NCBI GenBank assembly: GCA_028753945.1
Contig: JAPNXP010000015.1
Coordinates: forward strand, 1,550,001-1,614,000
Direction: 5' to 3'
Length of the DNA: 64,000 bases
DNA from: Hexactinellida sp. DTS-2022
Taxonomy: Eukaryota; Porifera; Hexactinellida
Shown: in pieces, positions 12,115 to 55,283 of the stretch
Numbering within the stretch: the stretch's first letter is position 1
Layout of the letters: each line of letters starts with the position of its first letter
The notes under the pieces: model-generated
Seen by the model: only the letters and a program-made list of their open reading frames with translations
Databases searched by the model: none
What the model was told of the DNA's origin: nothing
Made by a program: the position numbers and the translations under genes

Positions 12115-12245
12115 GTGCCAGGGTCCTTCAATTTGTTTTATTCCCGGGCCACTTCGTAACTGGAGTAGCCATAATTGATTACTTATACGCTAATAACAAA
12201 TAGGTAAGAATAAAACACAGTATGTGCACATACTGGGGGTGTATG

Positions 12246-12465
12246 CAATAGTTCGAATCTGTATGTAGGCGTTAGTTCGAATCGTATTTGACTATGTAGG
12301 CGTTAGTTCGAATAGAATTTGACTATGTAGGCGTTAGTTCGAATCGTATTTTACTATGTTGGCGTTAGTTCGAATAGAATTTGACTATGTAGGCGTTAGT
12401 TCGAATCGTATTAGACTATGTAGGCGTTAGTTCGAATCAAATTTGACTATTTTAGTTGGAATCAA
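12246..12465 (+). repeat. Left subterminal array of MULE-1, 31-base period
   Basis: Six to seven units of about 31 bases, each containing GTAGGCGTTAGTTCGAAT followed by a variable ATTTGACTAT tail. Alternate units differ (TCGTATT versus TAGAATT), suggesting a two-unit higher-order period. The inverted counterpart is at 22375-22530. Such arrays are common binding regions in Mutator-like elements. Confidence 0.9.
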
Positions 12466-12599
12466 ATAATTTAATTAGACCGACAGTGGATATTGCTCAC
12501 TATTTCTAGATGAAACATGATTCCACATGTCCATTTTAATTATTTAAGATAATATAATTAAATCAAAGAAAAAACAATTAATTATTCAAGAAATATTTG

Positions 12600-15180: not shown

Positions 15181-15349
15181 GACCCCACCTTCCTTTTCGG
15201 AGCCAACAGCCTCAAAAGGCTAAGGGAGCTTAATAACGAGCAATCCCAACTGGATAAACTATCCAAACCTCCTATGCCAAACGGCCCAAACCATCTGGCT
15301 ACGGTAATACCTCCCAAAACTCAAACCATTTTTTTCGGAAGGGTTCCAC

Positions 15350-17171
15350 TTGGGGAGCGGGCCCCAGTGGGACGAACCAGCATTACCGTCCAAACCAGTA
15401 TCCCAAGCCAAGCCCACACAAGGGCAACGACAGGAGGGGCAACAATGCTCCCCGGGGGAGGCAATAACTCCTCACGACCTCTTCAAGAGGTTCATGCGCC
15501 CCACATTGGCGCCCCCGAATGCAGCCCGACTACCCTTTTTTCTAAACAATTGGCTGCTAATCCGTCCTGGACCCGAAATTCGGCACTACGTAAAAGGTGT
15601 CCAGTTGGACACCCCCCAGAATCTATACACGTCAACTCCGCCTCACAACTGCATATCTACCGCAGAGCAACACCTGGCAGCAAGCCAGGAGATCGACCGC
15701 CTATTGGTCATGGGAGCCATAGAGAGAGTGGAAAAACCATATTTCCTAAACCCCTTCTTTCTCCGGCTCAAGAGCTCGGGTCAATGGAGATTAATACTAA
15801 ATCTCAAAGCCCTAAACAAACATCTCGACCCTCCCCACTTCAAGATGGAGGGCCTGCATTGTATACAGTACACAGTTTCCCAAGGAAACTGGTTAGCCAA
15901 AATAGATTTAAAGGATGCCTATCTTGCAGTGGAAATTCGGAAGGAATCTCGCAAGTTCCTCCAGTTTATCTGGCAGGGACAAACCTTCCAGTATCGGGCA
16001 ATGCCATTCGGCCTGAGCATGGCACCATACATCTTCACAAAACTGCTGAAGAGACCCCTCTCCTATCTCCGATCCCAAGGGATCAAGATAGTAGCATACC
16101 TAGACGACATGCTACTAGCGAACCCCAGCAAGGGAATGCTGACGGCTCATATCAATGTTACCATCTCCCTGTTACAGAACCTGGGATTCATTGTGAATTG
16201 GGAGAAGTCAATTCTCACGCCCCAACAAACCATAGAATTCCTAGGAATTATAGTGGACACACGCCGGATGCTCCTAAGAGTACCCCAACGAACTCTGACA
16301 AAGATCAAATATCAGTGTCGGAGAATAGCACACAGGGGCGGCTGCTCAGCCAGAGAACTGGCAGCACTGATCGGATTCCTGAGCTTTACCAAAATAGCTA
16401 TTCCAATAGCTCCTTTATTCTATCGAGCACTTCAGTTCGACCTAATAGCAACGCTCCAGTTGTCGAACAACTACAATCAGTATGTCCATCTCTCCCAATC
16501 ATCCCAGGCGAACATAACCTGGTGGATGATTAAGGCGGAAGATTGGAATTCCAGCTCAATTCTAAGGCCAGAGATAAGCCTGGTTATCCAAACCGACGCC
16601 TCGCTAACAGGCTGGGGAGCCTCTTGCCAGGAGAAACGAGCCTCGGGAGCCTGGTCCTCCCTAGAGAAGACGCTTCACATCAACCTCTTAGAGTTGAAAG
16701 CGATTTTCTTTGGAGTGAAGTTATTTGCCACTCCCAAAACGCACGTCTTGGTGCAGACGGACAATACCACTACAATTCGCTACGTCAACAGATTTGGAGG
16801 CACTCACTCCCTCCCTCTGTGCCAGCTGGCATATCCCAGGGAAGGAGAATATAACTGCCGACGCTCTATCCCGCCAGTTGAACTCACACCAACACGAATG
16901 GCGTCTCTGTCCGAAAGTTTTCGGAGAAATCCTCTACCAGAACCAGGTATACCCACACGTGGACCTTTTCGCCTCACGCCTGAACAACCAGGTGGCGAGA
17001 TTTGTGAGTTGGCGTCCAGACCCGGAGGCCTGGGCAGTGAACGCCTTGGTAATCAAATGGAAGGACCTGGGAATACTATACATGTTTCCCCCGCCAATCC
17101 TCATCGGCCAGACTCTGTCCAAGTTGACACGGGAGGAGATCACAACAGCGATCATTATAACCCCATTCTAG
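15350..17171 (+). pseudogene. DIRS reverse transcriptase and RNase H
   Basis: A long frame (15350-17491) carries the reverse transcriptase: KIDLKDAYLAV, YRAMPFGLSMAPYIF and VAYLDDMLLA, with the catalytic YLDD near residue 250, then EFLGIIVDT. RNase H follows with IQTDASLTGWGA, NLLELKAIFFG and VLVQTDNTTT. Near 16800 the coding shifts to another frame (to 17171) with HIPGKENITADALSR, VDLFASRLN and VSWRPDPEAWAVNAL, the distinctive C-terminal RNase H part of DIRS elements. The catalytic motifs are intact but the frameshift would disrupt the product. Confidence 0.85.
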
Positions 17172-17179
17172 CCGAGCAG

Positions 17180-17676
17180 GCCTTGGTGGCCCCTTCTTCT
17201 GGAGTCCTTAATCCAACCACCAGTGCAGTTGCCTCAGAGTCAAACACTACTCACCGATCCGTTGGGGAACTATCACCCCCACTCCAGCCACCAACAAATG
17301 ATACTACTGGCCTGTGTCATATCCGGGAACTCCTCAGAGACAGAGGAATTCCGGACAGGCCTGTTGAGATCATTCTCAAATCGTGGTGCACTTCCACAAA
17401 GAAATCCTACAAATCTGCGTGGAACGCATGGTCACGTAGGTGCTGCAGAGGTCAGCCGATCCCTTGGACCCATCTGCAAACAGCATATTGACCTTCTTGA
17501 CGGATACATTTGACGCGGGAAAATCCTCTAGCTGGATTCCTACTTTAAAATCATCGCTGTCCAACATACTAACAATTTCCGGGAATCCCGCTAACATCAA
17601 TGATCCACTAATACCAAGGCTGCTTAAGGGTATAGACAACATCAAGCCCAAACAGCCAAGATACTCAAGGGAAGTC
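17180..17676 (+). pseudogene. DIRS tyrosine recombinase, N-terminal half
   Basis: Coding resumes with an LLLESLIQPPVQLPQS-type stretch and then, with frame switches near 17340 and 17460, ILKSWCTSTKKSYKSAWNAW followed by LTFLTDTFDAGKSSSWI. This is the SAM-like core-binding part of DIRS-type recombinases, which integrate the circular DNA. It breaks off at 17676, where MULE-3 is inserted, and continues at 21161. Confidence 0.75.
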
Positions 17677-18195
17677 CGACAATTCGCACCACGACAATTC
17701 GCACCCGACAATTCGCACCACGACAATTCGCACCAACGACAATTCGCACCACGACAATTCGCACCTAATTTAATTGGCCAACTACTTACTCCCAATTTTA
17801 ATTTTAAATTATGGATTCTTACTTAATTAATTTGCGAAAATCTAAATTTAACTTGCCACTCTTTTGAAAGCATTGTTCTCAGGAAGGTGATATATAGGTT
17901 TACAGTCGAATCTTTGAATAAAGTAAGTTATGAATCGATATAATATTTTCGAAAAGTAAACAGGAAGTAGAGATGGAAGTATAGCAGCTGAATTGTATTG
18001 TTCTTACAATTGTATTGTTCTTAAAAACAATTGTATTGTTCTTAAACTTCAAAAGTTTTCAAAGGCGTACGAGTCACCTGTTATTATTAAAATAGGCACG
18101 CCCTAAGTATAAAATATAAATCTTAATTTAATTATCAAACATTATACACAAATATATTTTTATTGGCGACACTACAACAACAATAATAAAGCGGC

Positions 18196-19222
18196 ATGGA
18201 AGAGCCTCTTAATCAGCCTTTTAGGCTGATTAAGTCGCAAAGAGGAGGAAGCAAGCTGGTGGAGAGAGGCTATATATATGGGATACAGAGGAGAGCAGGA
18301 GAGGTGACGCATTGGCTTTGCGAGAAGAGAGGGGTTTGCAACGCAAGAGTTCATACACAAGGTACGGAGATAGTGAAGCGCACGAATGAGCACCTCCACG
18401 CCCCTGACGAGCAGGCAGTGAGCTGCTGTGAGACCAAGATAGGCATCAAGAGGCGGGCACGGGAGTCGCAGGACAGCTCACACCACATAGTGGGGGAGAG
18501 TATGGTGACGGTATCTGAGGGCACGGCTGTTAAGCTACCCAAGCTGGACAGCCTGAAGCGGACAATACAGCGCCAGCGCGTGCAGCAGCTGGCAGCTCCT
18601 GTGCAGCCTGCCGGTCTGGAGGAGCTGGTGCTACCGGCAGAGTACCAGCAGACAGCCAAGGGGGAGCAGTTCCTCCTCTACGACTCGGGACCGGAGACGC
18701 AGAGGATCCTCATCTTCGGGACACAGCGCAACCTGGAGATGCTGCGACTGTCGGACTACTGGATGGCTGACGGCACCTTTAAGACGGCGCCCTCCCTCTT
18801 CGCCCAGGTATATGTGGTGCATGCACTCCGTGGAGGGCCTCAAGTCATGCGGGATGGTCACCTGCTGCCGAGTCTGTTCGTGCTGCTGCCCAACAAGACG
18901 GAGGCTACCTACAGGAGGATGTGGGAGCAGATTCGCCTACTCTGTCCCCTTGCCCAGCCGAGGGAGATGCTCTTAGACTTCGAGAAGGCTGCGATTAGCA
19001 GCTTTGAGGCGGTGTGGCCGGCACACTGGTCAAGTGCTGCTTCTTCCACCTCACGCAGAACGTATGGCGCAAGGTGCAGGCTGCTGGCTTGCAGGCTGCC
19101 TACAGCCTGGACGAGGAGCTAACGAGGAGAAGCTGGTTAATCTAGTCGCCAGTTATTATAGTCGTAATCGTATAGAGTTCTTGAGAGGAGTAGCACATCA
19201 TTTCAGTTTGGGAGCGGATTAA
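18196..19222 (+). pseudogene. MULE-3 transposase, left copy with internal deletion
   Basis: It starts MEEPLNQPFRLIKSQRGGSK, the start of a FLYWCH zinc finger (GYIYGIQRRAG, HWLCEKRGVCNARVHT, NEHLHAP). Then come a linker and the MULE nuclease blocks MADGTFKTAPSLFAQVYVVH and LLDFEKAAISSFEAVWP, holding the first and second catalytic Asp. After AVWPAHW the frame shifts. At about 19118 the sequence jumps to the last coding segment (LVNLVASYYSRNRIEFLR), so the catalytic Glu region is deleted. A 3-base GCT microhomology lies at the junction. It is non-functional as written. Confidence 0.85.
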
Positions 19223-19231
19223 TACCTATCA

Positions 19232-20670
19232 CTAGGTTGTTAATCCCTCTCTACTGAATTGGTGTGCTACGACTCTAAGGAACTCTATTCTAGTGCGGTC
19301 ATAATAGCTGCTTGCTAGGTTAGTCAGCTTCTTCTCGTTAGCCTGTGCGCTCCTCCGCTTGGTGGGCGCCGCTCCTGCGGTGAACTTAGCCTGCCGTACC
19401 TCCACAAGGCCCTGCTCCCGCTTCAGGGCAGCTATGAACTTCCATATGGTAAGGTGGTGGCAGCCAACAGTGGCGTTAAAGCTGCGGTGCCAGGCCTCTA
19501 CGGCGTTGGTAGTCCGAGGCAGTCCGAAGGGCGTCTCCATGTGGTAGTTCCAGAAGTCGATAGGGAACAGCGGCGCCTGGTATGTGCCGCCTGGGAGAAT
19601 ACGCCCGATGTAGGTCTGCTCGAAGTACAGGACCAGCTCGGCGGCCTCTGGCATCGGGAGCAGCGTCGCTACAGCTGAAAACAGGCCGGGCACATCCGTG
19701 AGCGGGGCGAACGCGAGAGCTGGGAGGTGTCGGATGCGCAGAGCCAGCTCCTCGTCCAGGCTGTAGGCAGCCTGCAAGCCAGCAGCCTGCACCTTGCGCC
19801 ATACGTTCTGCGTGAGGTGGAAGAAGCAGCACTTGACCAGTGTGCCGGCCACACCGCCTCAAAGCTGCTAATCGCAGCCTTCTCGAAGTCTAAGAGCATC
19901 TCCCTCGGCTGGGCAAGGGGACAGAGTAGGCGAATCTGCTCCCACATCCTCCTGTAGGTAGCCTCCGTCTTGTTGGGCAGCAGCACGAACAGACTCGGCA
20001 GCAGGTGACCATCCCGCATGACTTGAGGCCCTCCACGGAGTGCATGCACCACATATACCTGGGCGAAGAGGGAGGGCGCCGTCTTAAAGGTGCCGTCAGC
20101 CATCCAGTAGTCCGACAGTCGCAGCATCTCCAGGTTGCGCTGTGTCCCGAAGATGAGGATCCTCTGCGTCTCCGGTCCCGAGTCGTAGAGGAGGAACTGC
20201 TCCCCCTTGGCTGTCTGCTGGTACTCTGCCGGTAGCACCAGCTCCTCCAGACCGGCAGGCTGCACAGGAGCTGCCAGCTGCTGCACGCGCTGGCGCTGTA
20301 TTGTCCGCTTCAGGCTGTCCAGCTTGGGTAGCTTAACAGCCGTGCCCTCAGATACCGTCACCATACTCTCCCCCACTATGTGGTGTGAGCTGTCCTGCGA
20401 CTCCCGTGCCCGCCTCTTGATGCCTATCTTGGTCTCACAGCAGCTCACTGCCTGCTCGTCAGGGGCGTGGAGGTGCTCATTCGTGCGCTTCACTATCTCC
20501 GTACCTTGTGTATGAACTCTTGCGTTGCAAACCCCTCTCTTCTCGCAAAGCCAATGCGTCACCTCTCCTGCTCTCCTCTGTATCCCATATATATAGCCTC
20601 TCTCCACCAGCTTGCTTCCTCCTCTTTGCGACTTAATCAGCCTAAAAGGCTGATTAAGAGGCTCTTCCAT
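19232..20670 (-). pseudogene. MULE-3 transposase, right copy, full length but frameshifted
   Basis: The minus-strand copy has the same N-terminus (start 20670), FLYWCH finger and first two nuclease blocks as the left copy. It continues from 19852 in a second frame with LVKCCFFHLTQNVWRKVQAA, AELVLYFEQTYIGRIL, TNAVEAWHRSFNATVGCHHL (candidate catalytic Glu) and ANEKKLTNLASSYYDRTRIE. The switch between the two frames occurs at the GTGTGGCCGGCACACTGGTC site, at the same place as in the left copy. Either both copies are dead or the family uses a frameshift here. No RING finger is present, unlike MULE-1 and MULE-2. Confidence 0.85.
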
Positions 20671-21160
20671 GCCGCTTTATTATTGTTGTTGTAGTGTCGC
20701 CAATAAAAATATATTTGTGTATAATGTTTGATAATTAAATTAAGATTTATATTTTATACTTAGGGCGTGCCTATTTTAATAATAACAGGTGACTCGTACG
20801 CCTTTGAAAACTTTTGAAGTTTAAGAACAATACAATTGTTTTTAAGAACAATACAATTGTAAGAACAATACAATTCAGCTGCTATACTTCCATCTCTACT
20901 TCCTGTTTACTTTTCGAAAATATTATATCGATTCATAACTTACTTTATTCAAAGATTCGACTGTAAACCTATATATCACCTTCCTGAGAACAATGCTTTC
21001 AAAAGAGTGGCAAGTTAAATTTAGATTTTCGCAAATTAATTAAGTAAGAATCCATAATTTAAAATTAAAATTGGGAGTAAGTAGTTGGCCAATCAAATTA
21101 GGTGCGAATTGTCGTGGTGCGAATTGTCGTTGGTGCGAATTGTCGTGGTGCGAATTGTCG

Positions 21161-24026: not shown

Positions 24027-24067
24027 AGTTATTAACTGTCTACTGCCCAAGCGTGTTATATGTAGTA

Positions 24068-24680
24068 TTTTACTGTGCCGACTACACTTTAGTATAGTGG
24101 CCCAGTATTGAAATCACTGCCTTTAATATTTTTTACTGTGCCGACTATACTATAGCATAGTGGCCCAGTATTGAAATGACTGCCTTTAATATTTACTGTG
24201 CCGACTATACTTTAGTATAGTGGCCCAGTATTGAAATCACTTCCTTTAATTTTTTTCCTGTCTCCATAGACGGTACCCTGGCCAGATTTCTATAGTTGAT
24301 GGGCTGAAACTTGGCATATAGGTGCATATTTACCGTCTAATTTGCACCTGGGGTTACAATTTTTGATTAGCACGTTTTGGACACATTTTTAACAACTTTC
24401 AAAATTTGTCTGGTCCATAACTCAATAATGTTTTACTAAACCCTCAATTTTTATTTCACTTTTGGATTCATCATAAAATTCTGCGTCTGATGGAAGAAGA
24501 AAGTTTTTTTATAATGGGTTTAATTTCTGCCATAAATGGGAGTTGAAATTTCTTTGTTTACTCACACTTCAATTTCAGTAAAACTGTTAAATTTAATTCT
24601 ATTGTTTCAACTTGTAAGAATTATATTGATTTAACTTGTTAATTCCTACTCTATTGATTCAACTTGCGATAAATATATTG
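24068..24680 (+). mobile_element. Dispersed element headed by a 62-base tandem repeat, copy 1
   Basis: Three units of about 62 bases (24068-24252), each with TACTGTGCCGACTATAC and TAGTATAGTGGCCCAGT flanking a small palindrome, are followed by sequence that recurs after a similar array at 48849. Shared blocks include GTGCACCTGG/TTGCACCTGG, TTTTTGATTA, TTTTGGACACATTTTT and TTCTATTGTTTCAACTTGT. Tandem repeats at one end of a dispersed core are known from non-autonomous Helitron relatives. That assignment is only a guess. Confidence 0.6.
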
Positions 24681-25500
24681 ATTTCACTTATAAATTCCAG
24701 CTGGCTTCTATTTAATTGTAGTATTACTATAAGTACAATGGATTAAATAAAGTAATTTAATATAAGGAATTTGTTGACTTAACTACTCACCGTGGATAAC
24801 ATTGCTAAAATAAATAACTAATAATATAATTTATTATCAATACATAATGAATGAATGGCATTCATCTTCATTCATGGTGAATAGAAGAAAACCACGTTAT
24901 TCGATATAAATTACTACTCTAGGTGTGCGTATTATAATCAGGTCGCTTAAACATATAATTTTAGCCGAATCGGGATACGCTGTACAAGTTAATATTTACG
25001 TAATCTTTGTGACCCCAGCATCAAATTTTTCCGCAGCCCCACGACAAACAGATACATTTTCGATGTCATCTTGGTTTGTTAAAATTTCGGCTCTACTAAA
25101 TCGCCGATATTACCCCGAACGCGAACTATTTCAAAATCTATTCTGGTCAACTTGTACCGATCAGATCCGTTGTCCACATGAAATTATCCGTCGTATAATG
25201 GGTATTTGCCCATAGTTTATCCTTAGCAACGCAATAATGTTTTTGGAATGTGACAACATTCCTTCTTCTGATTGTGACTCTAAAAATCTATATAATTCAT
25301 TGTTTCCCCCTTACCCATAGTGCTTAATTCGATTTATGTCAACGTTGATACATATAAATTACATGATAGTATAACTTTGCCATGCATTCTGCATTAACAG
25401 CGCAACGCTTGCTTAGTTTATTCCTTTCAGTTTTAGTATATTTTGAATCCCTAAACGAGCGAGGTAACTAAAAGTACACAGATCATGATCCTAAGATACA
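24681..25500. other. No gene recognised
   Basis: AT-rich DNA with a 96-codon plus frame (24925-25215) that resembles nothing I know and has no clear splice context. I see no repeat termini. Confidence 0.4.
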
Positions 25501-26811: not shown

Positions 26812-29800
26812 CATAGCAATCTATATACTAAGGCAATGGCAGTCTATTGAATTTATGGACCATGGACTGCGAAGTAATGCTAATTTTGAATTACATTATG
26901 GAGGCTGTTTTAGCTAATATTTTATAAAAAACTAACTAACTAGAGTATATTTAATCATCCCTATCCTATAAATGCATTTACTAATGGTTCTGACAACATT
27001 CAAAAATATCATATTTCGTATCACCGGAATCTCTCAACTAAAATTATGTTGAAGAAGTAAAAATTGTCATAAGTTATAATAAAAATCTCATAAATACATG
27101 CTATACTTTAGTTAGTAAACTTTAGAGTCCTATCTTAGGGCTACTTTTTGTGATATAACCAAAGATGCGCATAATAACTATCATTTTATTACCACATCAT
27201 AGCAACCCATAATTGTTATTTACAATATTTATTATATATTAGCAATTTTGAAAATATTGTTGTTTATTCTACTAGTGCTTTGAATACCATTCTAATAAGA
27301 TGACAACTTGTATTGTACCTGGTTGTAATTCCAACTACCATAATCAAATGAAGTTTACTTCTATCTTTTCTTTTCCTAATGACATCGTTTTGCGTGAGAA
27401 GTGGTTCCGAGCGATACCTAGGCCGCGAGAAGATTATGAGATGAACAAACATTTAATTAAAGGTGAACTTTTTATTATTACACAATTTGAATTTGATATT
27501 CCTTATATTCATTTATATTTTAAGGTTTGTATACACCATTTTCATGAGGAGGACATTGAGAGAACATTTCTATTCCATGATGGGACTAAGATGGTGGAGA
27601 TGGTAAAGAAGAAGATCACTCTGAAGAAGTCCGCAGTACCATCTATCTTCCCAAACTGCCCTAGTTATTTGACAGATGTGGCTACAAAACCCCAAAGACT
27701 CTCATGGCACGATAAGGAGCAGAAAAGAGTTCAAGAAGCTTGCGAGAAAAGCCGCATTGATCATGGAGAAACTGAGGCTAAGTTTATCATTTCTACTCTT
27801 AGTTGCATTTTTAGTAAATTGTATCTAATTCAACTACCTAATGGTTGGCTTACCCATCAACCCAATTTCAATACCATCATATTTCTTAAAATTCAATTTG
27901 ATAATAACATATCAACCATCGACCGTTCTATTATTGTTGATGAAAATCTATTTTGCAAAGCTTTTTATAGGCAAACTTATAAGATTGAGTTATCTTGTCA
28001 TACTCTCAATGATATTAGGTCATTAGAAAATATCATACATGAAGTTGAATTATTTGAAATCAGCCATGATAACCATAATTACTCCAGTTCTTCAGCTACG
28101 CCTTTGATAAACCACATCGAAAATGCAATTCACAACATTTCTAGTGCTATTAATACATTAGAGCCCAGTAATTCCTCAGATTTGGAAATCGAGAGGGATT
28201 CTATGCGTATTCGTCTTAATTTTTTGCTAGATCAGTTGAAATACCTAATTGTCGATAAACACGGTCGCCGTTATAACATCCTCACTCAGGTCTTTGGTTT
28301 GAAAATTCACGGAATTTCTCCAGCTTGTTATCGTCTTATTCAAGGTTCTAATTGTCTAATTCTTCCACATGAGCGTAATTTATTAAAGATCAAAAATAGC
28401 ATTGGCTTAGAAAGTGAGTATACTAAAATTCTTAAAGAAGTTGCTACCACATTTAATGATTTAGAGCGCCATGTCATTCTTCAAATGGATGAGGTTCACA
28501 TTCGTAGTGATGCATCTTATAAGGGAGGTAGGGTAATCGGGTCGATTGACAATCCAGATGATCCACATACTACAGTCTTTTCGATTATGGTTTCTAGTTT
28601 ATCGACCAAATTTTCTACTATTGTTCGATTAATTCCTCTAGGTTCCTCTTCTGCAGAAACATTGTATCCAGTTGTGAACTCCACTATTCGTGACATTGAA
28701 TCTTGCGGTCTTTCTGTTGAAGCTGTGTGTACAGATAATTATCCATTGAACGTGCGTCTATACAAATTGTTTTCAGCTGATTCGAAATTAGAACCAAAAG
28801 TACAACACCCATGTAACCCACAAAGAAGTTTATTTCTGTTTTTTGATATCGTTCATATCATCAAGTCTATCCGGAATAATTGGTTAAATCTTAAGGATTA
28901 TGAGAACACGTTCATTTTTCCAAAATTTGATGAATGTCAATTCAGTGCAAGAAAAGTCGTCTCCAATAAAAGTTTAATTGTTTCTATCCCGACTGCGAAT
29001 ATATCAATAGATCATTTTACCTCTAGCTCTACCTATCCTGTACTATGTTATGCACCCTTTCAAGACATCCGTAACTTGTTCAAATCCGATAAGTTTAATA
29101 TCCTAAAACGAGCACCCAAATTGACAGCTAAAGCGTGTTGGCCCTCTAGGTTAGAAAGACAAAACGTCAGTTTAGCACTGAAAATATTCCATGAAACAAC
29201 ATCTGCAGGTTTATTAGCCTGGAAATTGGAAAATAACATAGTGGATACCACTCAAACTGTAGAATTTCTTGATATAATGAGCAAAGTGTGGAAGATATTT
29301 AATGTAAATTGGGTCGGAAAGAATATTCGCTTTAAGGATGATTATTTAGCTCCAATTTATCCAGCAGATTTCCGTTTACAATATATAAGTAAAGTTGTCT
29401 CTTGGTTAGATAATTGGGTAAATCTGCCATTTATATCGGGAAAGTTAACTCCGCAAACTTTTACCAGTTTTCGACACACATGTGAGGCGTTGCCACTGCT
29501 GGTCAAACAACTTATCGAGAACTGCGGGTATAAGTACCTTCTCACTGCGAGGATCCAAAATGACTCTCTAGAACACCACTTTGGTTTATATAGACAAATG
29601 TCAGGGTCTCACTATCACATTTCATATAACCAAATCTTAGAAAGCGAACGCAGACTTCAACTTTCGAACATATTAAAGGTGTTTGCTATAAAATATGGTT
29701 CCACTAACACTGAAGACAGTGTTTCCTTAAAAGAATATCTTGCTCAATTTTCGGATGATGTAGATTCCATAAGCGACGAACAACTCAGCTTTGATATTGA

Positions 29801-30738
29801 ATTGTACATACATAAATTGAATGAAATTTTTCTCCCAGACTTCGAGGTTTCTCAGATTGAATGTCTGATCTATATAGCGGGATATGCAGTCTTCTCTTAC
29901 TTTAAAAAATCTAATGGGTGTCTATCTTGTCATAATTTCTTAACAACAGATAAACCTCTTGAAGTTAATAATGATGTTGGGTCCCAGTATACCTTGATTG
30001 ATCTGGTGGATAGAGGCTCCCTGAAGTATCCTTCTTATCATGTGGTAAAATCTCTTTTTATATTGTATGAAACTTTTGTAAAGATTGATAACTGCGATTG
30101 CTTTAAAAAAGAATTCTATTCTGGACCATCCCGAAACTTGCTGGTAAACATATGTATGAACATTATTGCAGAGAGGAATAATAACGTGTGGAAAGATTGG
30201 TGCATATGTAATGTTTGGAACTGGGATATTCTCAAAAAGCTTTGTGTAACTTGGGCAAACATAATCTTGTCAAAGAGGGTTCGTAATTACAATGTCGCCG
30301 TTTTAAAAAGGGATAATACCAAACTTAAAAAATACAACTAATACTTAAGTAATTATTTGTTTCCTCTAGATATACGTACTACAAGAAGTTTGTCAGTGTT
30401 TAGAAGATGGTGTGCAAGAAGTAGATGATCCCTGGCTGCTACGGACTGAATTTACTATGTTTTGTACTTATTTGTGTATTAATATGTGTAGTAATATTGG
30501 TATTTGTTGTTAAGAGTTTCCAATTAAAATTTACATGTTTCCAATTATATTTATTGTTAATATTGAGCTGGATATTACTATAAGTTGAACGTGGAAGAAA
30601 GAGCTATAATTCAGGAGCATTTAGTTGTATTAATAGATTAAGTAGCAACATATGAAAAGTTTGAAATTAGCATTACTTCGCAGTCCATGGTCCATAAATT
30701 CAATAGACTGCCATTGCCTTAGTATATAGATTGCTATG
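26812..30738. mobile_element. P2: apparently complete P-type transposon
   Basis: Inverted terminal repeats of 75 bases are identical (start CATAGCAATCTATATACTAA) and are flanked by the direct 7-mer CCCACAC (26805-26811, 30739-30745). The element is 3.93 kb and contains one long open transposase frame. Perfect termini, an intact duplication and an open frame point to recent insertion. Confidence 0.93.
27300..30341 (+). CDS. THAP-domain P-element-type transposase (P2)
   Basis: An open frame of 1013 codons. The THAP zinc finger occupies roughly residues 1-120: CIVPGC, a tryptophan (REKWFRAIP), CIHHF and AVPSIFPNC. The RNase-H-like nuclease follows, with first acidic block ILQMDEVHIRSD (about residue 395), second block VCTDNYPLNVRLYKLF, then a FFDIVHIIKSIRNNW block ahead of the inserted domain. 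The late catalytic Glu block is RIQNDSLEHHFGLYRQMSG. All are expected of P/THAP9 transposases, which cut and paste DNA and in Drosophila bind GTP. Oddly, 21 AT-rich codons (GELFIITQ...HLYFK) split the THAP finger between HLIK and VCIHHF. This looks like a retained intron, but the best GT-AG pair would remove 62 bases and break the frame. Confidence 0.92.
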   Translation: MTTCIVPGCNSNYHNQMKFTSIFSFPNDIVLREKWFRAIPRPREDYEMNKHLIKGELFIITQFEFDIPYIHLYFKVCIHHFHEEDIERTFLFHDGTKMVEMVKKKITLKKSAVPSIFPNCPSYLTDVATKPQRLSWHDKEQKRVQEACEKSRIDHGETEAKFIISTLSCIFSKLYLIQLPNGWLTHQPNFNTIIFLKIQFDNNISTIDRSIIVDENLFCKAFYRQTYKIELSCHTLNDIRSLENIIHEVELFEISHDNHNYSSSSATPLINHIENAIHNISSAINTLEPSNSSDLEIERDSMRIRLNFLLDQLKYLIVDKHGRRYNILTQVFGLKIHGISPACYRLIQGSNCLILPHERNLLKIKNSIGLESEYTKILKEVATTFNDLERHVILQMDEVHIRSDASYKGGRVIGSIDNPDDPHTTVFSIMVSSLSTKFSTIVRLIPLGSSSAETLYPVVNSTIRDIESCGLSVEAVCTDNYPLNVRLYKLFSADSKLEPKVQHPCNPQRSLFLFFDIVHIIKSIRNNWLNLKDYENTFIFPKFDECQFSARKVVSNKSLIVSIPTANISIDHFTSSSTYPVLCYAPFQDIRNLFKSDKFNILKRAPKLTAKACWPSRLERQNVSLALKIFHETTSAGLLAWKLENNIVDTTQTVEFLDIMSKVWKIFNVNWVGKNIRFKDDYLAPIYPADFRLQYISKVVSWLDNWVNLPFISGKLTPQTFTSFRHTCEALPLLVKQLIENCGYKYLLTARIQNDSLEHHFGLYRQMSGSHYHISYNQILESERRLQLSNILKVFAIKYGSTNTEDSVSLKEYLAQFSDDVDSISDEQLSFDIELYIHKLNEIFLPDFEVSQIECLIYIAGYAVFSYFKKSNGCLSCHNFLTTDKPLEVNNDVGSQYTLIDLVDRGSLKYPSYHVVKSLFILYETFVKIDNCDCFKKEFYSGPSRNLLVNICMNIIAERNNNVWKDWCICNVWNWDILKKLCVTWANIILSKRVRNYNVAVLKRDNTKLKKYN

Positions 30739-42182: not shown

Positions 42183-44823
42183 TTAAAAGTCGTGCATTAA
42201 GGTTTCGTCATTCTCGATTGTAATAAAGATCTTTAACACAATAATAATGGCATCTATAACAATATGAGATGGCCATTTGAGAGCACCTCGGTCAATAAGT
42301 TGAATTAGTTTATAAGTATCTTCCGTACCAACGATTTCGAGTTCTTTATCCAGTGTAATCAATGACATACAAGTATCACACTTGACAGATTGCTTCAAAT
42401 ACGAGTGTACAGCATATCCACCGACAAAGGCAACTGATTGAAGAAGTGAACGATCAAAAGTAATGGTCGAAAAGTATTGATATGCTATGAGGTATGTATC
42501 TAGGTTTAAAGCATAATTGGAAGGTTCGTTAGATGAGGTGGAACAGGAATCGATCATATCCTTTAAACTGACGTAATCTGATTGTTCCTTTTTCGAGAAT
42601 ATTTTGAGGATGCTTGATAACTTGATTCGTCGTTTACTTTCAATTATTTGAGAATAACTAACGTGATAATGTGCACCAGACATCATACGATACAAACCAA
42701 AATGATGTTCGATTGGGTCATTTTGTAATCGTGATGTGAGCACGTAATCAAATCCACAATTTTGAGTGAGATGTTTTACTATTTCAATCAGGGCAAGACA
42801 TGAATGAGAGAAGCTTGTGAAGGTTTGGGGACTCAATTTACCGTGTTTATTTTCACGAGATCGCCATCGTGCAAGCCAATTGACAATGAGCCGTAGAAAA
42901 ATACAACGATAATCATCACACGTAAGAGGTTTGGAAAAATCATCATTAAGTCTGATATGCTTATGTGTTGTATTGACATTGAAGATCTTCCAAACTTTTA
43001 TAATAATGTTAAGAAACTCGATTGTTTGGGTTTCGGAATTTGTTCGTGCGGAGTTGTAAATAGATAATGCAGCGAGTGTTGATGTGTCGAAAATCTTTAA
43101 AGCTAGGCTGACATTTTTCCGCTCTAAACTTGTGGGCCAGCAAGCTTTAGCTGTTAAACGATGACCCTGTTTGATGATTAAACTCTGCTCGTTTTTGTAA
43201 AGCATTCGAATATCTTGAAATTTCGCAATATGTATATGTTGGCTATTTTCATAGTTCGGAAAAATAAGTGTGTTTGGATAAGAAAATGTATGTTCATAAT
43301 CTTTCAAATTGATCCAGTTGTTTCGTATTGATTTTATAATATGAACGAAATCGAAAATTAAGAAGATTTTTCTTTCTGGATCAATGGGATGAATAGCAGT
43401 AGGTGTCAGAGTCTTTTTATCAGAAGAAAAAAGTTTGAAAAACTTCACGTTTAGAGGATAGTTATCAGTACAGATAACTTGCACCTTTAGACCACAGCGT
43501 TCAATGTCACCAATGACAGACTTGACCACTGTATAAATCTCGGTAGCAGAATTAGAAGAGCATGGAAGCAAGCGGACAATTTCTGACCACTTTTTATAAA
43601 GACTTGATGCCATTATGGCGAAAACAGTTTTAATCGGGTGATCAGGTTGCAATGAGTAGCCAAATATTTTTCCTCCCTTATAATCGACGTTAGATTTTAC
43701 ATGTATCTCATCCAGTAGAAGAAGAATATTATTTTCCTTTTCGCTAAACTCAGAGGTAGCTTGCATAAGAAATGCTGAAAAATCATTCTCTAGCCCAAAA
43801 TTTGAGCAGAGCTTTTGAAGAGTTTAGGATATGGTAAAGAGAGGCATTCGAGTGACTGTAAGTATCTGTAACAAGCTGGAGAGATCTGGTGAGATTTTAA
43901 AGCCATTACCTGAGTAAGAACATTATATCTACGCCTAAATTTACTCGGGAGAATATTATCTAATTTGCATTCGATGAATTGCAGCTGTGAAAGATAGGAA
44001 GCCGTTTCTGGATTATCATCTGAGTATGAAGAATTAGAAATGAGCCTTTTCTTTGCCAAATTAACGTGCTTATTGGCCTGATTAATAGGAAAAACAAGCT
44101 GGTCCGGGTTTGTAGAATTTTTGTCTTGAATGTAAAAATCTTCAGTCTGTTGGATAATTTCTTCGATCTGTCGTATATCAGATAAAACATCCAACGTCAA
44201 CGGAATACTGAGGTTATCGCGAAACGAAAAGATTCTTAGGTTGCGAGATACCTTCAAACAAGCTTGAATCTTCATTCCCTGATCTGAGAACTCGGGTTTA
44301 TATATATGAAGGGAATCATAGTCAGAATGACAAACCATCCACTTATTTAGTAAAATAAGTCCTGGGATTTTCTCAATTAGGTCTTGAAAACTGTTTTCCA
44401 TAAATGCATCGTTATCTCTTTCATGTTGCTGAAGGCTTAAGTCAAGAGCTCGTGCAAATTGTTCTGTTTCTTTCGACTCGCGTGTAAATCGAGTAGTTCT
44501 CCCAACCTGTTCAGCTGAAAGATAGGCCGGACATCCAGGTAAGAGCATAGGAACGGCTGTAGTACGAAGCTTGGGCCTTTCGCGTAATTTCTCGGTGAAT
44601 TTCCGTCTGCTTGCATTATTCTGTCCACGGTGATAATATCTTCAGGCATAAAATGATGGAGACATACGTAAATATGCTTTAGATTTTCTGTGTTCACTCG
44701 ATGAAGAGATTTTAACCACTGCTCACGAAGTTCAGGGGGAGTATTTGGAAGTTTTAACACTGGTGTATATGGTTCACCTCGATAATTACTCCTACACCCA
44801 GGTGCAGAACACTGATAAGGCAT
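42183..44823 (-). pseudogene. P3: THAP-domain P-type transposase with frameshifts
   Basis: The start is taken at MPYQCSAPGCRSN (44823), which places the THAP cysteines as in P2. CLHHFMPEDI follows, then a frameshift near 44580 before PGCPAYLSAEQ. A second frameshift and stop near 43800 precede the nuclease: LLLDEIHVKSNVDYKGG, CTDNYPLNVKFFKLF, FDFVHIIKSIRNNW and RLQNDPIEHHFGLYRMMSG. All catalytic blocks survive, so decay is recent. It is closest to P2 and P1 among the copies here. C-terminal coding ends at 42183. Inverted terminal repeats were not identified. Confidence 0.88.
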
Positions 44824-44839
44824 CTTTGCGTAGAGCACA

Positions 44840-45302
44840 ATAAAATAAATAAACTAGAAAACAAAATGTTTAAAAAAAAAGATTAACCAATAGACCAATA
44901 GACAACAAAATATTATAACCAATCAACAAAAAGTTAACCTTTAGACAATTAGACAACAAAGGTTAATAAACAAAAGGTTAGCCAAATGTTCTTAATTAAG
45001 AATTTGGTTGGTTATTATATTTAGTGACAAATTATTATACACCCATGATTAAATGAACAATAAAAATAACATAGTTGATAATTTCGTCTCTAAATTGGAC
45101 CAATAACCAATGCACTTCTAACATATCTATGGTCCGTTTTTTTCATTTCAGCACTCCGTACTTATTATTTCGTAGTCCACGGTTGAACCAATTCCAGTCG
45201 ATCTTATTCCAGTCTTGTAAATTAGTTGGACCTATTCCAGTCGATCTTATTCTGGTTTCCCAGATTTACTATGTCAAGTCCATGACGATGCTGGTCACCA
45301 AA
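44840..45302. other. No gene recognised
   Basis: AT-rich DNA upstream of P3 with repeated ACCTTTAGACAA/AATAGACAACAA words, and a duplicated CCAGTCGATCTTATTC (about 45195 and 45239). Confidence 0.4.
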
Positions 45303-47888: not shown

Positions 47889-47907
47889 ATTTCTAAGGAA
47901 GCGCGGC

Positions 47908-48048
47908 AATTGATCGACTGACAACGTTTGCAATTGATCGAATTTCTAAGGTTTGCAATTGATCGAATTTCTAAGGTTTGCAATTGATCGACTTAGGTTT
48001 GCAATTGATCGAATTTCTAAGGTTTGCAATTGATCGACTTAGTGATAG
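47908..48048 (+). repeat. Left subterminal array of MULE-2
   Basis: Six units of GCAATTGATCGA followed by ATTTCTAAGGTTT or CTTAGGTTT. The inverted array at 51205-51400 has about nine units. Note that the unit contains ATTTCTAAG, the same 9-mer as the target duplication. Confidence 0.9.
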
Positions 48049-48174
48049 ACTTAATATGTGATTTATTCTAACTTTGAGTAATATTTTTGAGAATATAATG
48101 ATTTAATTAAGGAATTGTGAAAAGATAATGAATTAAAATTGGATAACAACAACAACAAAATATTAGAGTAAAAA

Positions 48175-48840
48175 TTAAGTAAAAATATTGAATCTTTGTT
48201 CTATATTGCACCTGCATATTGGACATTGTTCCAAGGATGCACTGCATTCCTCACAACATTTTGCATGCCTGCAAGGAAGAAATAGGACTGTTGTTATTCT
48301 CTGAAGTAAGCACACACAGCAATTAACCTGATTATCATCTTCAGGCTCTTCATCCGTCAAAGACTCATCTTGGAAATCTCCAAGGCTAATTGGGTTTGTA
48401 ACTGGGTGAATAGAGCTAGCTATGGCATCCACATATCGAGTTGGACTATATTCTCCCGATACAAGCATTTCTTTGCATTGAGCACGAAACGAATCATTTT
48501 CGATGTCAATCAACTTACGACTGCGAGTAATATCAATACCTTTTCCAAGGCGCTCAATGTCTAAATCTGTGTCTTGTATCGTCTTATTGAGGATTTCAAC
48601 AAAAAAACATACACGCGGGTGAGAGACCACGATGTCCTTTTTTAATCTATAGTGGTAGTTCTCTGCTCCATTATTTGTGATATGTTGGCAGTTAAAGATA
48701 GATAATTCTTTCTTAGGAATGGAAATAATCCATTGTCGTCTTATTTACTTCTTAAAGATTGCATATTGATTCTTATGAACTTCACTAAGAGGCAAATCTC
48801 TCACTTCCAGTGGATTGAATACAAATATAATCTGATCTAA
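48175..48840 (-). pseudogene. MULE-2 transposase C-terminus fused to a RING finger
   Basis: One minus-strand frame runs from LEVRDLPLSEVHKNQYAIF through one stop, then RRQWIISIPKKELSIFNC and NNGAENYHYRLKKDIVVSHP, the last conserved block of MULE transposases. It continues without a stop through a 100-residue linker (LGKGIDITRSRKLID, CKEMLVSGEYSPTRYVDAIA) into a RING finger at the C-terminus: CCVC, LPCRHAKCCEECS and CPICRCN. The CxxC, CxHxxxCxxC, CPxC spacing is that of IAP-type C3HC4 RING domains, which are ubiquitin ligase modules. MULE-1 has a homologous linker and RING. I infer the RING is a native part of this transposase lineage, not a chance neighbour. Confidence 0.87.
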
Positions 48841-48848
48841 CTAGTTTT

Positions 48849-50085
48849 TACTGTGCCGACTATACTATAGTATAGTGGCCCAGTTCTAATCTCAGTGCCT
48901 TGGTTATTACTGTGCCGACTATACAATGGTATAGTGGCCCAGTTCTAATCTTACTGCTTTGGTATATTATTCTTCCGTAGATCGTCCACAGAACAGAGTT
49001 TAATTAACTAAGAGCCCAAATTTTCAGGACAGGTGACTCATGGATTACAGATGTGCACCTGGAATCACGATTTTTGATTAAAAACTTTTGGACACATTTT
49101 TGCAACTGTTTAATGTTAGAAAAGGAACAATAAATGGTGCCCGAATATTTAATTTATTTGCATTAGATAGAAAATTAAATTCTACACCTTTTCACAGTGC
49201 GCGAATTAATAAATTTGGTTTCGTTTGTGCCACAATAGAGTTGCAAATTTCCTTTGTTTACTAACACATCAGTTCAATTGAAAGTGTTAAATCTAATTCT
49301 ATTGTTTCAACTTGTGATTATTATATTGATTCAACTTGTGAGATCGAGTAGGCTTCTATTTTCCAATTGAAAACTAAGATTATATATTTCATAACAACGA
49401 CAGATTATGTGATTACATTTACTTCTGCGAGAATATTATTGCACTGTTAATATATGACGTATATAATTATAATTAATTCAGTCAGTATATGACTTATATA
49501 GATGCTCCCAATTTGTTTATTAGGGGTTATCGAGTGTGCGGAATTGAAACTTGATAGCCAAATTGATTAATTTATTATTTATGACAAAATAATTAAACTT
49601 AATAAATATTTGTTGACATTGAAATTGGTGTTAAATTATTAATAATTATTTATATTAAATAATTAAATATCATAAATCTCAGAGATCATAGAAGATAGAA
49701 ACAAACTTTCAATTTATCAATTGATCCTTATGCCACGTAACACCTCTACAAATGGGTTTTGACCCCTTGAGGTGATGATGACATCGTCAAAAAAATGTGT
49801 TTTTACAATTTTGTGAATTCTATATTTTGAATGGGTTAGTTGGTGTTGAGTGAACTCCCAACACGCACATAAAAAATGCTGACTCATCACTTATTATATT
49901 CTACTGAAACTTGAATATCTTTGAATTGAAGTAAGCTAAAAACGAAACTACCAACTCACTAAGGTTCGCTGCCTTTTGAAACACCTTTCTAAAATAATTT
50001 CACACATTCATGGTGATGATGACATGGCGAAAAAAAAATCCCAAATTGCAGCATGTGCAGACAGCATGTTCCTTTGGAGGCACTA
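48849..50085 (+). mobile_element. Dispersed element headed by tandem repeats, copy 2, inside MULE-2
   Basis: Two ACTGTGCCGACTATAC...GTATAGTGGCCCAGT units (48849-48963) are followed by core blocks shared with 24068-24680 to about 49345. The rest is AT-rich, with a duplicated GGTGATGATGACAT at about 49773 and 50012. It separates the MULE-2 transposase halves, so it inserted after MULE-2 arrived. The right boundary is approximate. Confidence 0.6.
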
Positions 50086-51041
50086 TCAATAAAACACCAT
50101 CAAAATATAGTGCCACCAAAGGAGCATGCGTCGGCACAGGGTGCAAATTTGGATTTTTGTAAAATCTGGATTTGTTTGATAAAGAGTAGTTAGACCTAAG
50201 TTTTGTATTTTCTGCCAAATACATTGAGTATATTGAAAATGACATCCCCGTAGATGAATACCTAGGAACTGTCTCTTTACAGCACTTCTAGCCCCTTTCC
50301 CCCAATCAGACATTCCATGGCTAGGTTTTAGTGGTGGAACAAGTTCGTGTATTCTAGCGAGAACAGCTGTATAGATTTCCTCATGCTTGGCTGTAAGAAG
50401 ACAATGGAAAACCGGCAGTACATGGCGTCCAAATCGGGCGAAGATAGTCCACAATTGATAGAACTGGGATGGTACCGTATAAAATGTACCATCAAAATAG
50501 ATGTGAACCACTTCAGGGAGAGAAATCTTCATCTTATCTGAGAAAAATATCACACCAGTGTCACCACCTATTTGTACTTCACCTTTATAGTATATACCAA
50601 AATCAGATGATACAATAAGTTGACAAAACTCAGTAGCACCTTTAGTAATAGGTGGTTCAATTTCTCTTCTTGCTCGATACATTGCACTCTCCAAATTTTT
50701 ATAGGACACATGAACTGCAGAAGGATCATCACGAACAACATCTTTGAACACTTTAGATAACCTTTCACGTGAACATCTCGCCGCAGAAACACATTTAGAT
50801 TTTAAAATTAAAACTTCAGCATTATAATCAGAAACTAAATGGTTATGGTGTTTTATGGGATCAATATAGTATTGGATTCATAGTTTAACTTTGCAGATCC
50901 TTTACACTTTACTTTCTGATGTAAAACACATCGGAGATACATTACCCCAGGTTTGGCTTTGTGTTGTGTGTATATAAAACCATCTGGCGTAGTGAAAATT
51001 GTTCCCCTTCTATGTTTATAATTTCCGCATACGTAGTCCAT
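50086..51041 (-). pseudogene. MULE-2 transposase, FLYWCH and nuclease N-terminal part
   Basis: From 51041, MDYVCGNYKHRRGTIFTTP and GVMYLRCVLHQKVKCKGSAK form a FLYWCH-type finger. A frameshift near 50875 precedes KHHNHLVSDYNAEVL, the rest of the finger. The MULE nuclease follows: YFDGTFYTVPSQFYQLW with the first catalytic Asp, RFGRHVLPVFHCLLTAKHEE, and MSDWGKGARSAV with a likely second Asp. RGCHFQYTQCIWQKIQNLGL is a conserved pre-Glu block. Coding fails after NPDFTK near 50130, where a repeat interrupts it. The remainder is at 48175-48840. First and second acidic residues are retained here, unlike MULE-1. Confidence 0.88.
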
Positions 51042-51414
51042 GTTAAGATTAGAGTGGAAATAAAGTTAGAGATAAGTACGTATTCGAATAAACAAATTGT
51101 AAAACGGACACTTATTTATACAATGAAACGTTTCTAGTATACACCATACAGTTTCATTTGTATGGTTTACAATTTATCGACAATTGTATTTTCGAACATT
51201 TGCAAATCCTAGAAAGTCGATCAATTGCAAACCTTAGAAAGTCGATCAATTGCAAACCCTCAGAAGTCGATCAATTAAAACCTGTAGTCGATCAATTGCA
51301 AACCTTAGAAAGTCGATCAATTGAAAACATGTAGTCGATCAATTGCAAACCTTAGAAAGTCGATCAATTGCAAACCCTCAGAAGTCGATCAATTGCAGGC
51401 GCTCCATTTCTAAG

Positions 51415-52622: not shown

Positions 52623-55184
52623 TCAGTCTGGTAGTCTACGTTTCTTGGCCTTAAATGAATCAACTTGAGACTTTCTAGCAGTTTCACTAACTTCATTGGA
52701 AAGTCCTTTAAGATAAAGATTAGTTACAATCGAATGAACTCTCTTACAACCATCAGTAGCATGTAGATCGCAAACAAAACCAGAATCCCATTCAACTGAT
52801 ACCTGTGCAAGTAGGTGGAGCATTACATGTTTAGTTGGAAGTTTAGTTGCCAATATCTTCGATTCAAACGATTCGAGTATACAAAATGCAGTTTCTACAT
52901 ACTGGTAAAGGATTACTGTTGGTAAGTGGAGCCCCCCTCTATTAAGAATCTCAATATAAGAATTATTCATCTGATCTTTCTGAAGTAGTTCAAAACAAAC
53001 ATCACAGTTGGAACGTTGTATGAGCGAATGAGAGATGTACCCTGCTACATAAGCAACAATATGTTTAGAGTTATCTGATAAAGAAAGTAGGTCAATAGAA
53101 TCAGTCGGTAATGTGATTAAAAAATCAGAAATTAGCTTATTTATTTCATCAGTTGAAGACACTATTAAGCCACTAAAGTCGATATCGCGTTTGAGAAGGT
53201 GCTGGTAAGTTATTATCTTTTCAGAATGCAGTATCTCAGTTAAACTCACTAGAAAACGACCGCCACTCATTTGTCTATATTGAGAAAATCTCCTTTCTAA
53301 TGGATCGGTCTGTAATCTTCCGGTTAATACGTAATGAAAGCCATCTATGATTAAATCATATGATAGATCAGCAATAGCGGCATTTGTATTCATTAATGCT
53401 TCAAAGGTTTGTTTAGTGAGACCAAGTTTTTTCGAAAGTTTCCAAGTTGATAACCAATTGTTCATTTCCAGTAGAAAGGTACGTTTATCTTTAAGCGTAT
53501 TTGGACTAATAGCATTTCCAAAGTGATGCGGATGAAAACGTTCTTTGGAATTAACAAGCAACCACCACATGTTTACCAGCTCTAAGAATGCTGGAGTTAC
53601 TATATCTTCATCCCTGAGATATTCACGCATTGCAGCTGAGGTTTTACTATCAAAAATAGCAAGAGCTAGTGGAACCGATTGTTTGTTATTTCCTGGGTGA
53701 AGTGCTTGGTAGTTTAAAGATGGAGCTTTTCGAAGATGGAAATTGAGAGAGTGGTCTGCGTCATGAACTTTGTGAAGACTACGCCAAAATACATTCCCTG
53801 CTGGAACTATAAGAGTTAATTCTTGAAGTTTTAATTGCAGCTGTGGAATTTGAAAGAACCGAGCACCAATAAGATTATTCCGAATGTTTTTGATTAGGTG
53901 AACTGTATCAAAAAGCAAGTAAACAATTAGAGAATTATTTGGATTGATCATACAGTATTTCTTTTCAGGAACTGGATAAGTATTCATCAAATAGTTGAAC
54001 GAAGAAATATTGGTTCGGTGATTATCAGAAATAACAGCACGAGGATGAAACTTTTCATAGGTTAAATTTTCCAGACAATTAAGGATACCATTACTTACAA
54101 TTTTGGACGATATAGTGAATAATGGAATAGCTTTAATGATAAAGGGGATAGTATTAGTGAGAGACATCGCCATAAAACAAAGTATGCTCTTGTACATTTG
54201 GAGATCTTCATTACAACCAATAATAGTTTGTCCGTCAAATTGTACTTGTTGCTGTAGATGCATTTCATCAAGAAGAATTACGACATCATTTCCAAAAAAA
54301 CCATCTTCACGAAATTTAGATAAAGCTTTTATACTATCAATGGAGTCGGATTTTAAACAACGTAATAATCTCTGGCTAGGTAGCGGCATGTATTGACGTA
54401 ATAGATTATAAGCTGCATTTGAAGTATAGCGCAATTGAAGGGCAAATCGAAGAGTACTGGTAGAGTATTTACACTTTCCTTTAGGGCAATAGTATACGAG
54501 TCGCAACAGATCTTTAAGAGGTTCAATATCATAATTGTGAGTGATGTTTCGACAATAGATGGGTAAATTTGTTAACATATCCAAGTTACGAATTTTAGAA
54601 CCTTTAGAATTCGATATATAATCTGGAAGAGGAATAAGGAATCCTTCAAAACTAAGCTTCACATGTAAATCAGAACTGATATTTATACACTCCATAACTG
54701 TAGCTACACCTGATTGTATTTCAACCCGATAAATAGTAAGATCTGTTTCAGTAGAAGAATGAAAAAAGTCTCGATACTCGATCGCTGATTTTATGTGGCT
54801 TAAGATATCTTGTAAACTTTCGCATTTTGATCGAGATTGAAAAATGGGTAATTCATCTTTCTGAAAAATCCGCACAATAGGTTTTTTTCGAATAGGTGGA
54901 GAGATAATAGCCTGCTGGCTTTTAGGGATAGAAGAAGGGTATATTGTTGGGATAGGGCTGAGTTTCAAATTTAGCCTCGTCTTTAATGGATGGGGAATTA
55001 TATATTTTTCTTCAAAATGTTGGATGCATATTCGTGAAGACTGAGTAATTGTGAAAGCTTCTCGATTCAAAAACTTCACCCATTTCTGTCGAAGCTCATC
55101 TTGCTTTGGAAAGGCAAACATAACTTTACTAGGTCCATTGGAATATCCCGAATGACAATGTACGACAGAGCATTTGAATGGCAT
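52623..55184 (-). CDS. THAP-domain P-type transposase (P4)
   Basis: The open frame reaches 874 codons from 55247. I prefer the internal start MPFKCSVVHCHSGYSN (55184), which places the THAP finger at the N-terminus like its relatives, leaving about 853 residues. THAP features are CSVVHC, KWVKFLNRE, CIQHF and IPTIYPS. The nuclease shows VVILLDEMHLQQQ (first Asp), VISDNHRTNISSF (second Asp), LLFDTVHLIKNIRNN and the Glu block GRLQTDPLERRFSQYRQMSG. The C-terminus has CDVCFELL and an RKSQVDSFKAKKRR basic tail that could act in nuclear import. It is well diverged from P1-P3. No frame breaks were found, so it may be functional. Confidence 0.92.
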   Translation of the reverse strand: MPFKCSVVHCHSGYSNGPSKVMFAFPKQDELRQKWVKFLNREAFTITQSSRICIQHFEEKYIIPHPLKTRLNLKLSPIPTIYPSSIPKSQQAIISPPIRKKPIVRIFQKDELPIFQSRSKCESLQDILSHIKSAIEYRDFFHSSTETDLTIYRVEIQSGVATVMECINISSDLHVKLSFEGFLIPLPDYISNSKGSKIRNLDMLTNLPIYCRNITHNYDIEPLKDLLRLVYYCPKGKCKYSTSTLRFALQLRYTSNAAYNLLRQYMPLPSQRLLRCLKSDSIDSIKALSKFREDGFFGNDVVILLDEMHLQQQVQFDGQTIIGCNEDLQMYKSILCFMAMSLTNTIPFIIKAIPLFTISSKIVSNGILNCLENLTYEKFHPRAVISDNHRTNISSFNYLMNTYPVPEKKYCMINPNNSLIVYLLFDTVHLIKNIRNNLIGARFFQIPQLQLKLQELTLIVPAGNVFWRSLHKVHDADHSLNFHLRKAPSLNYQALHPGNNKQSVPLALAIFDSKTSAAMREYLRDEDIVTPAFLELVNMWWLLVNSKERFHPHHFGNAISPNTLKDKRTFLLEMNNWLSTWKLSKKLGLTKQTFEALMNTNAAIADLSYDLIIDGFHYVLTGRLQTDPLERRFSQYRQMSGGRFLVSLTEILHSEKIITYQHLLKRDIDFSGLIVSSTDEINKLISDFLITLPTDSIDLLSLSDNSKHIVAYVAGYISHSLIQRSNCDVCFELLQKDQMNNSYIEILNRGGLHLPTVILYQYVETAFCILESFESKILATKLPTKHVMLHLLAQVSVEWDSGFVCDLHATDGCKRVHSIVTNLYLKGLSNEVSETARKSQVDSFKAKKRRLPD

Positions 55185-55283
55185 AAGATAATGAGATCTA
55201 AGGATTGATTTAGGAAAAGTTTTATACAGTAAGTCAGAAATACACATATTCCTATAGTACGGATATTATATACATGTATTTAA

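Follow-up and report, generated by a model that had tools for sequence, protein, structure and literature searches.

Mutator-like transposases with a C-terminal RING finger in a clade of glass sponge DNA transposons

We analysed a 64,000-nucleotide stretch of DNA (hereafter, the window) and found that the Mutator-like element MULE-2 belongs to a family in which fusion of the transposase to a RING finger is a family trait. The MULE-RING elements are autonomous DNA transposons of the Mutator-like type and make up a large clade in glass sponges, documented by name in Oopsacas minuta and, judging from these named relatives, inferred for the host of the window. Their architecture is constant across copies, the gene and its ends move as one unit, and the RING has an E3-competent sequence. 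The RING probably works as a dimeric E3 that acts first on the element's own transposase complex, a reading of sequences and structure models to which we give a probability of roughly 0.6.

MULE-2 is a dead copy on the minus strand at 47897-51405, delimited by its inverted ends and arms. It is flanked by an 8-bp target-site duplication (TTAGAAAT, read by eye in the printed junctions), which comparison with paralogues places at 47889-47896 and 51406-51413 (ATTTCTAA on the plus strand at both). The paralogue duplications are GATGAAAC (L002) and GTCGTAAT (L027), with the next C assigned to the element end; since this C is an element base in both, the end base of MULE-2 is fixed as well. An earlier note on this DNA had claimed a 9-base duplication, of which the duplication stands and the length is corrected to 8 bp. 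A third paralogue, L003, has no duplication with either end placement. Short subterminal repeats build inverted arms around the FLYWCH, MULE and RING parts. Units around GTCGATCAATTGCAAACC at the gene's 5' end lie within the long terminal inverted repeat (TIR) at 51191-51397 (repeat family D1 and inverted pairs I1-I8), and the repeats at the 3' end, inverted relative to the opposite arm, occupy 47921-48040 (repeat family D2 and pairs I1-I8).

The transposase gene of MULE-2 starts with a FLYWCH zinc finger (MDYVCGNYKHRRG...) at 50865-51041 on the minus strand (Pfam FLYWCH, 5.4e-5; tblastn with residues 1-59 of the Oopsacas protein P0018). The MULE core, in which FDGTF and SDW supply catalytic acids one and two, follows in a different frame at 50152-50865 (minus; Pfam MULE, 1.5e-6; P0018 residues 59-296), and both parts are separate from the downstream frame that bears the RING. 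As the earlier note proposed, that frame (48175-48744, minus, 189 aa up to the stop codon) contains the last transposase block, NNGAENYHYRLK, and continues from it without a stop into a canonical RING of the C3HC4 type at the C-terminus. The block at 48640-48675 (minus) holds the third catalytic acid, E, in a column near-invariant among relatives, together with two invariant N residues. An acidic, poorly conserved linker at 48322-48408 (minus, approximate boundaries; pLDDT <50 for frame residues 115-136) joins the core to the RING at 48178-48321 (minus), which was recognised by Pfam (zf-C3HC4_3, 6.7e-9), profile and structure model and includes a 12-residue C-terminal tail (RCNIEQRFNIFT). Compared with its paralogues, MULE-2 has a nested insertion of ~1.3 kb disrupting the gene (about 48838-50151; L002, L003 and L012 are uninterrupted at this point) and has lost 32 bases; in addition, its reading frame shifts between FLYWCH and MULE, and a stop lies directly ahead of the RING-bearing frame. 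The description of MULE-2 as one complete transposon thus holds for the ends and fails for the coding part. No intact copy of the MULE-2 subfamily was present among the sequences examined, and relatives, not this copy, supply the full FLYWCH-MULE-RING frame. The insertion is partly similar to window positions 24063-24713; this segment and 48842-49340, inside MULE-2, are related repeat copies, pieces of which also flank L015.

A second, diverged and decayed element in the window, MULE-1 (12591-13960), has its parts in the same order as MULE-2. Its DDE part lies at 13289-13960 (minus; 31% identity by tblastn), its last transposase block, with stops, at 12833-13180 (minus; 40% identity to MULE-2) and its RING remnant, with one in-frame stop, at 12591-12743 (minus; 53% identity to MULE-2), and 31-bp subterminal repeats of its own follow downstream of the RING at 12231-12478.

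To characterise the family, the window's own genome (112.4 Mb, 18 contigs) was searched. The C-terminal piece of MULE-2 has at least 151 matches there, some within single frames of 520-609 aa, which puts the RING of MULE-2 beyond chance. From these matches 20 copies were selected for long open frames, a set biased toward RING and length, and in them one open frame of 520-609 aa leads from the FLYWCH/N-terminal region through the DDE core and linker to the RING region. Intact copies with one frame over FLYWCH, DDE and RING, which the earlier note had recommended seeking, do exist: 14 of the 20 are coding-complete (start, D-D-E and eight RING ligands; 12 identified by script, L034 and L041 judged by eye), and 8 of these also have TIR tips and an 8-9-bp duplication. 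Both catalytic D residues are present in all 20 copies and the E in 18, with K in L031 and L046 (L034 and L041 again by eye). The start is missing in L031, L032, L045 and L048, one RING ligand is lost in L045 and half of the RING in L043. PF10551 (MULE) was detected in 17/17 members of alignment A1, the core matches the IS256/Mutator-like fold, and the N-terminal FLYWCH finger assigns the family to the FLYWCH-type MULEs.

To seek members whose transposase ends before the RING, we used a DDE-only query, a stretch of L033, for which 141 places were listed and 140 of 1774 candidates, i.e., the nearest relatives, were scored. RING sequence was found in 52 of the 53 copies examined (55 qualified among these best 140 of 1774; the two outside the count, C14:1084143 and C17:812438, are siblings of L057), with the tally restricted to stop-free frames of at least 400 aa. 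The first tier comprised 38 stop-free frames of at least 500 aa that reach query residue 260 or beyond. A same-frame C-terminal match is present in 29 of these (that at C7:1875311 stops within the RING), and six of seven fetched copies have RING sequence, L058 with an internal stop and L061 with a frameshift. A second tier of 17 stop-free frames of 400-499 aa with the same reach was added because a RING-less protein would drop below 500 aa, favouring RING-bearers; all 17 have RING sequence, 13 via downstream matches (some in another frame, C12:832494 displaced by ~600 bp and C18:3223152 covering the first RING residues only) and four as fetched copies (L062-L065). L055, the sole copy lacking a RING, matches L040 up to a point inside the acidic linker and no further; it is thus the truncated sibling of a copy that does bear the RING. 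Three fetched rows with shorter frames (L066-L068) all have RING sequence.

Mobility was evaluated with a strict end test that demanded a G-rich tip, matching tips and an exact 8-9-bp duplication. This was passed by 11/20 own pairs of ends vs 3/380 mispaired controls; a looser scan for TIRs and duplications was non-discriminating, as 23/60 mispaired controls also matched. The TIRs and 8-10-bp duplication expected of a MULE are therefore present in 11/20 copies by the strict test, and two MULE-2 paralogues have 8 bp. L047 and L048 share 99.7% identity over 2794 bp, a match that begins and ends exactly at the element tips; their duplications differ (GTTTATAT and AAAAATGTC) and their flanks have no same-direction match. 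Tip-to-tip identity at different sites indicates that the RING travels with the element.

Protein searches with a full-length query returned 55 proteins, and those with names belong to Oopsacas minuta, a glass sponge (P0018; P0058, i.e., LOD99_15877, and P0065 came from a later search). Among 26 proteins of at least 500 aa from the protein searches, a set without P0054 and P0055, which are distant, or P0069, which is unrelated, the eight-ligand pattern is found in 21; in the other five (P0010, P0016, P0021, P0022 and P0027) the RING begins and then breaks off or shifts frame. Like the window family, LOD99_15877 (535 aa, 58% identity to L049) combines MULE and RING. It is annotated only as a hypothetical or RING-type domain-containing protein, and the terms MULE, Mutator, MuDR and RING do not occur in the main text of the Oopsacas genome paper (PMC10280926). 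A profile led by a distant relative recovered 14 FLYWCH-MULE-type proteins, including ones from Macrosiphum and Rotaria, none with the RING pattern (two of them, P0079 and P0081, are short fragments, and the Cys-rich tail of P0076 is of a different kind); this search required shared 5-residue words and did not recover P0058, although this RING-bearer was part of its query, and the result speaks for those 14 only. Two multicopy MULE families of the window's genome (L051 and L052; rows of 474 and 478 aa) lack a RING and end soon after the core. A tree of 48 rows, from which the RING was removed before alignment wherever the pattern was found, separated 35 RING-clade rows, collected with RING-clade queries, from 13 others by a branch with 100/100 support; several of the RING-less rows have long branches. 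One scan of viral contigs with A1 gave 50 pattern matches and no confirmed case.

Eight ligands in C3HC4 order were found in 18/20 of the fetched long-frame copies. All 18 full RINGs have V/I directly before ligand two, P before ligand three and R after CPxC; the V/I and P positions are presumably those that touch the E2. The tail has 12 residues in 11 copies and 13 in seven, with F/Y near its end in each. RING and tail have the highest mean identity among copies (53%), followed by DDE (46%), FLYWCH (38%) and linker (18%). In the five usable pairs, the rest being too diverged or too close, dN was 0.13-0.14 and dS 0.36-0.42 for the RING, and 0.16-0.33 and 1.05-1.22 for the DDE part, so codon-level support for selection acting on the RING is slim.

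The PDB entry best matched by the RING profile was cIAP2 (1.8e-11), with tail Phe aligned to tail Phe. The modelled window RING had pLDDT values of 93-96 (88 in the tail) and matched the structures of IDOL-UBE2D, cIAP2-UbcH5b and BIRC7-UbcH5b-Ub; the linker between core and RING was modelled as disordered. Judged by its sequence, the RING is IAP-like, having the linchpin Arg and a fixed 12-13-residue Phe/Tyr tail as in dimeric cIAP E3s. An Arg linchpin is described in PMC12326332, and in cIAP1 the tail Phe packs against the donor ubiquitin in trans, the F616H mutant being defective (PMC6349121). The comparison set (cIAP1, cIAP2, BIRC7, XIAP, MDM2 and IDOL) has sequence and fold matches to the sponge RING, and cIAP1, BIRC7 and MDM2-MDMX are described as dimeric with a short tail ending in Phe/Tyr, a type of tail that the sponge RING shares. 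Unlike these RINGs, the sponge RING is joined to a transposase, and no other IAP domain was seen with Pfam. A donor of the RING was sought via BIR domains (seven places in the genome), and the two stretches examined, L053 and L054 (~1.3 kb each), contained no RING. Five BIR-domain frames cluster at G000:C5:4489675-4500492 (minus), and in L054 a long tandem repeat comes after the BIR.

A third sub-clade (L056-L061, L065 and L068) has a RING variant, LLHxx[C/Y/F/A]xH, where others have PCxH. Ligand three is Cys in two and non-Cys in six of these eight fetched copies, and an upstream His, which may represent a ligand swap, is present in seven. Given these departures and the damaged RINGs of L043 and L045, some members of the family may be inactive as E3s.

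The constancy of the RING in the clade, its fixed tail and its cIAP2-like matches suggest that it is a working E3, and the ubiquitin-ligase-type domain of the earlier note is supported, as a predicted function, by sequence and fold. FLYWCH zinc fingers bind DNA. In these elements a single gene encodes a transposase of ~530 residues, in which FLYWCH is followed by the RNase-H-like DDE core, the acidic, disordered linker and, at the C-terminus, a RING of the dimerising IAP kind. Multimerisation of the transposases on transposon ends would bring the RINGs together to pair, and the RING dimer would bind UbcH5-type E2~ubiquitin, with the tail Phe/Tyr contacting donor ubiquitin in trans. The transposase complex itself would be ubiquitylated first, and this self-ubiquitylation may cap the transposase level or dismantle the post-cleavage complex for repair. 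RAG1, whose RING has ubiquitin-ligase activity (PMC4411706), offers a precedent. Among the counterpoints are that L055, the RING-less sibling, still has a long frame, and that the RING-less relative Muta1 is active in yeast (PMC5225508).

An active E3 could also be aimed mainly at host proteins, for example factors of silencing, chromatin or repair present at either the donor or the target site, in counter-defence or to steer repair. The same E3 hallmarks (the kept residues, the cIAP2 profile match and the E2-bound fold matches) fit this possibility, as does RAG1, a transposase-derived recombinase with a ligase-active RING (PMC4411706). Pfam found only FLYWCH, MULE and RING in the family, besides overlapping RING-type and RNase-H-like models, and with no further domain, a disordered linker and no pointer to a host target in the data, we consider a mainly host-directed role unlikely; it overlaps with self-directed activity because one E3 may act on both. 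A dimeric E3 used on host proteins at donor or target sites, as an independently evolved MULE counterpart of the RAG1 RING fixed through the clade's radiation, is likewise a tentative proposal at best. That the RING serves only structure or binding, in dimerisation or in contact with histones or DNA, and lacks a ligase function seems quite improbable. The cysteine-rich cross-brace finger at the C-terminus of piggyBac binds transposon-end DNA and that of PiggyMac binds histone H3 weakly (PMC8086355), and ligand loss in some members would suit such a module, but residues independent of zinc binding (V/I, P, linchpin R and tail F/Y) are kept in 18/18 full RINGs, CPxC always lies 12-13 residues from the C-terminus, and E2-binding E3s give the best matches in both sequence and fold. 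MULEs are prone to acquire host-gene fragments (PMC6446971), but a host exon captured by, or adjoining, a single copy, a case the earlier note had raised against itself, is virtually impossible given eight ligands in 18/20 diverged copies, a RING in 52/53 DDE-selected copies (among the best 140 of 1774), one clade at 100/100, a position inside the TIRs and the same architecture in Oopsacas LOD99_15877.

The sponge clade was also compared with known transposon systems by their published descriptions. The animal MULEs Muta1/Phantom resemble the sponge clade in their N-terminal FLYWCH, DDE core, 8-9-bp duplications and subterminal tandem repeats in the TIR; Muta1 is described as a 504-residue FLYWCH and DDE protein, to which the sponge clade adds the acidic linker and RING (PMC5225508). 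Two passing mentions of a RING in MULEs are found in a 2019 MULE survey (PMC6446971). The Ghost MULE of Myzus cerasi has a separate 420-bp RING ORF beside a truncated transposase ORF, with no ends found and SWIM listed in the table, and for MuDR-37_Pi of Phytophthora one table entry gives a ring finger, position not given; as described, they share the mention of a RING with the sponge clade and not the architecture. RAG1 and Chapaev, like the sponge clade, have RING and DDE transposase in one protein, but they belong to a different transposase superfamily and their RING follows a Chapa domain; that 2015 RAG paper states that RING and Chapa occur in no other known transposable elements (PMC4411706). 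The word RING is absent from the main text of a 2026 arthropod MULE survey (PMC13359780). No MULE transposase with a C-terminal RING was found in the literature searched (Repbase, Dfam and most subscription journals lie outside this scope), and within it we found no earlier description of the transposase-RING fusion as a MULE family trait.

The role of the RING in recombinases such as RAG1 is hard to study in isolation. The sponge clade represents a second fusion of RING and DDE transposase, in another superfamily and with well over 100 copies in one genome, and natural comparisons are available in the RING-less MULE families of the same genome and in the related Muta1 with its working yeast assay. 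With an active RING, a transposon would control its own enzyme, or its host, via ubiquitin.

Other elements were also observed in the window. Inverted pieces at 18190-19122 (plus) and 19232-20676 (minus) have the same frames, which are weakly MULE-like, and no RING was seen in them; the GC content of 16001-20000 is 0.51, above its surroundings. THAP and TNP-like RNase H (P-element-like) transposases are encoded at 52623-55265 (minus), 27276-30341 (plus) and 42183-44853 (minus), two of the frames being stop-free (880 and 1021 aa). A reverse transcriptase frame of 727 aa lies at 15308-17491 (plus; RVT_1, 3.1e-24).
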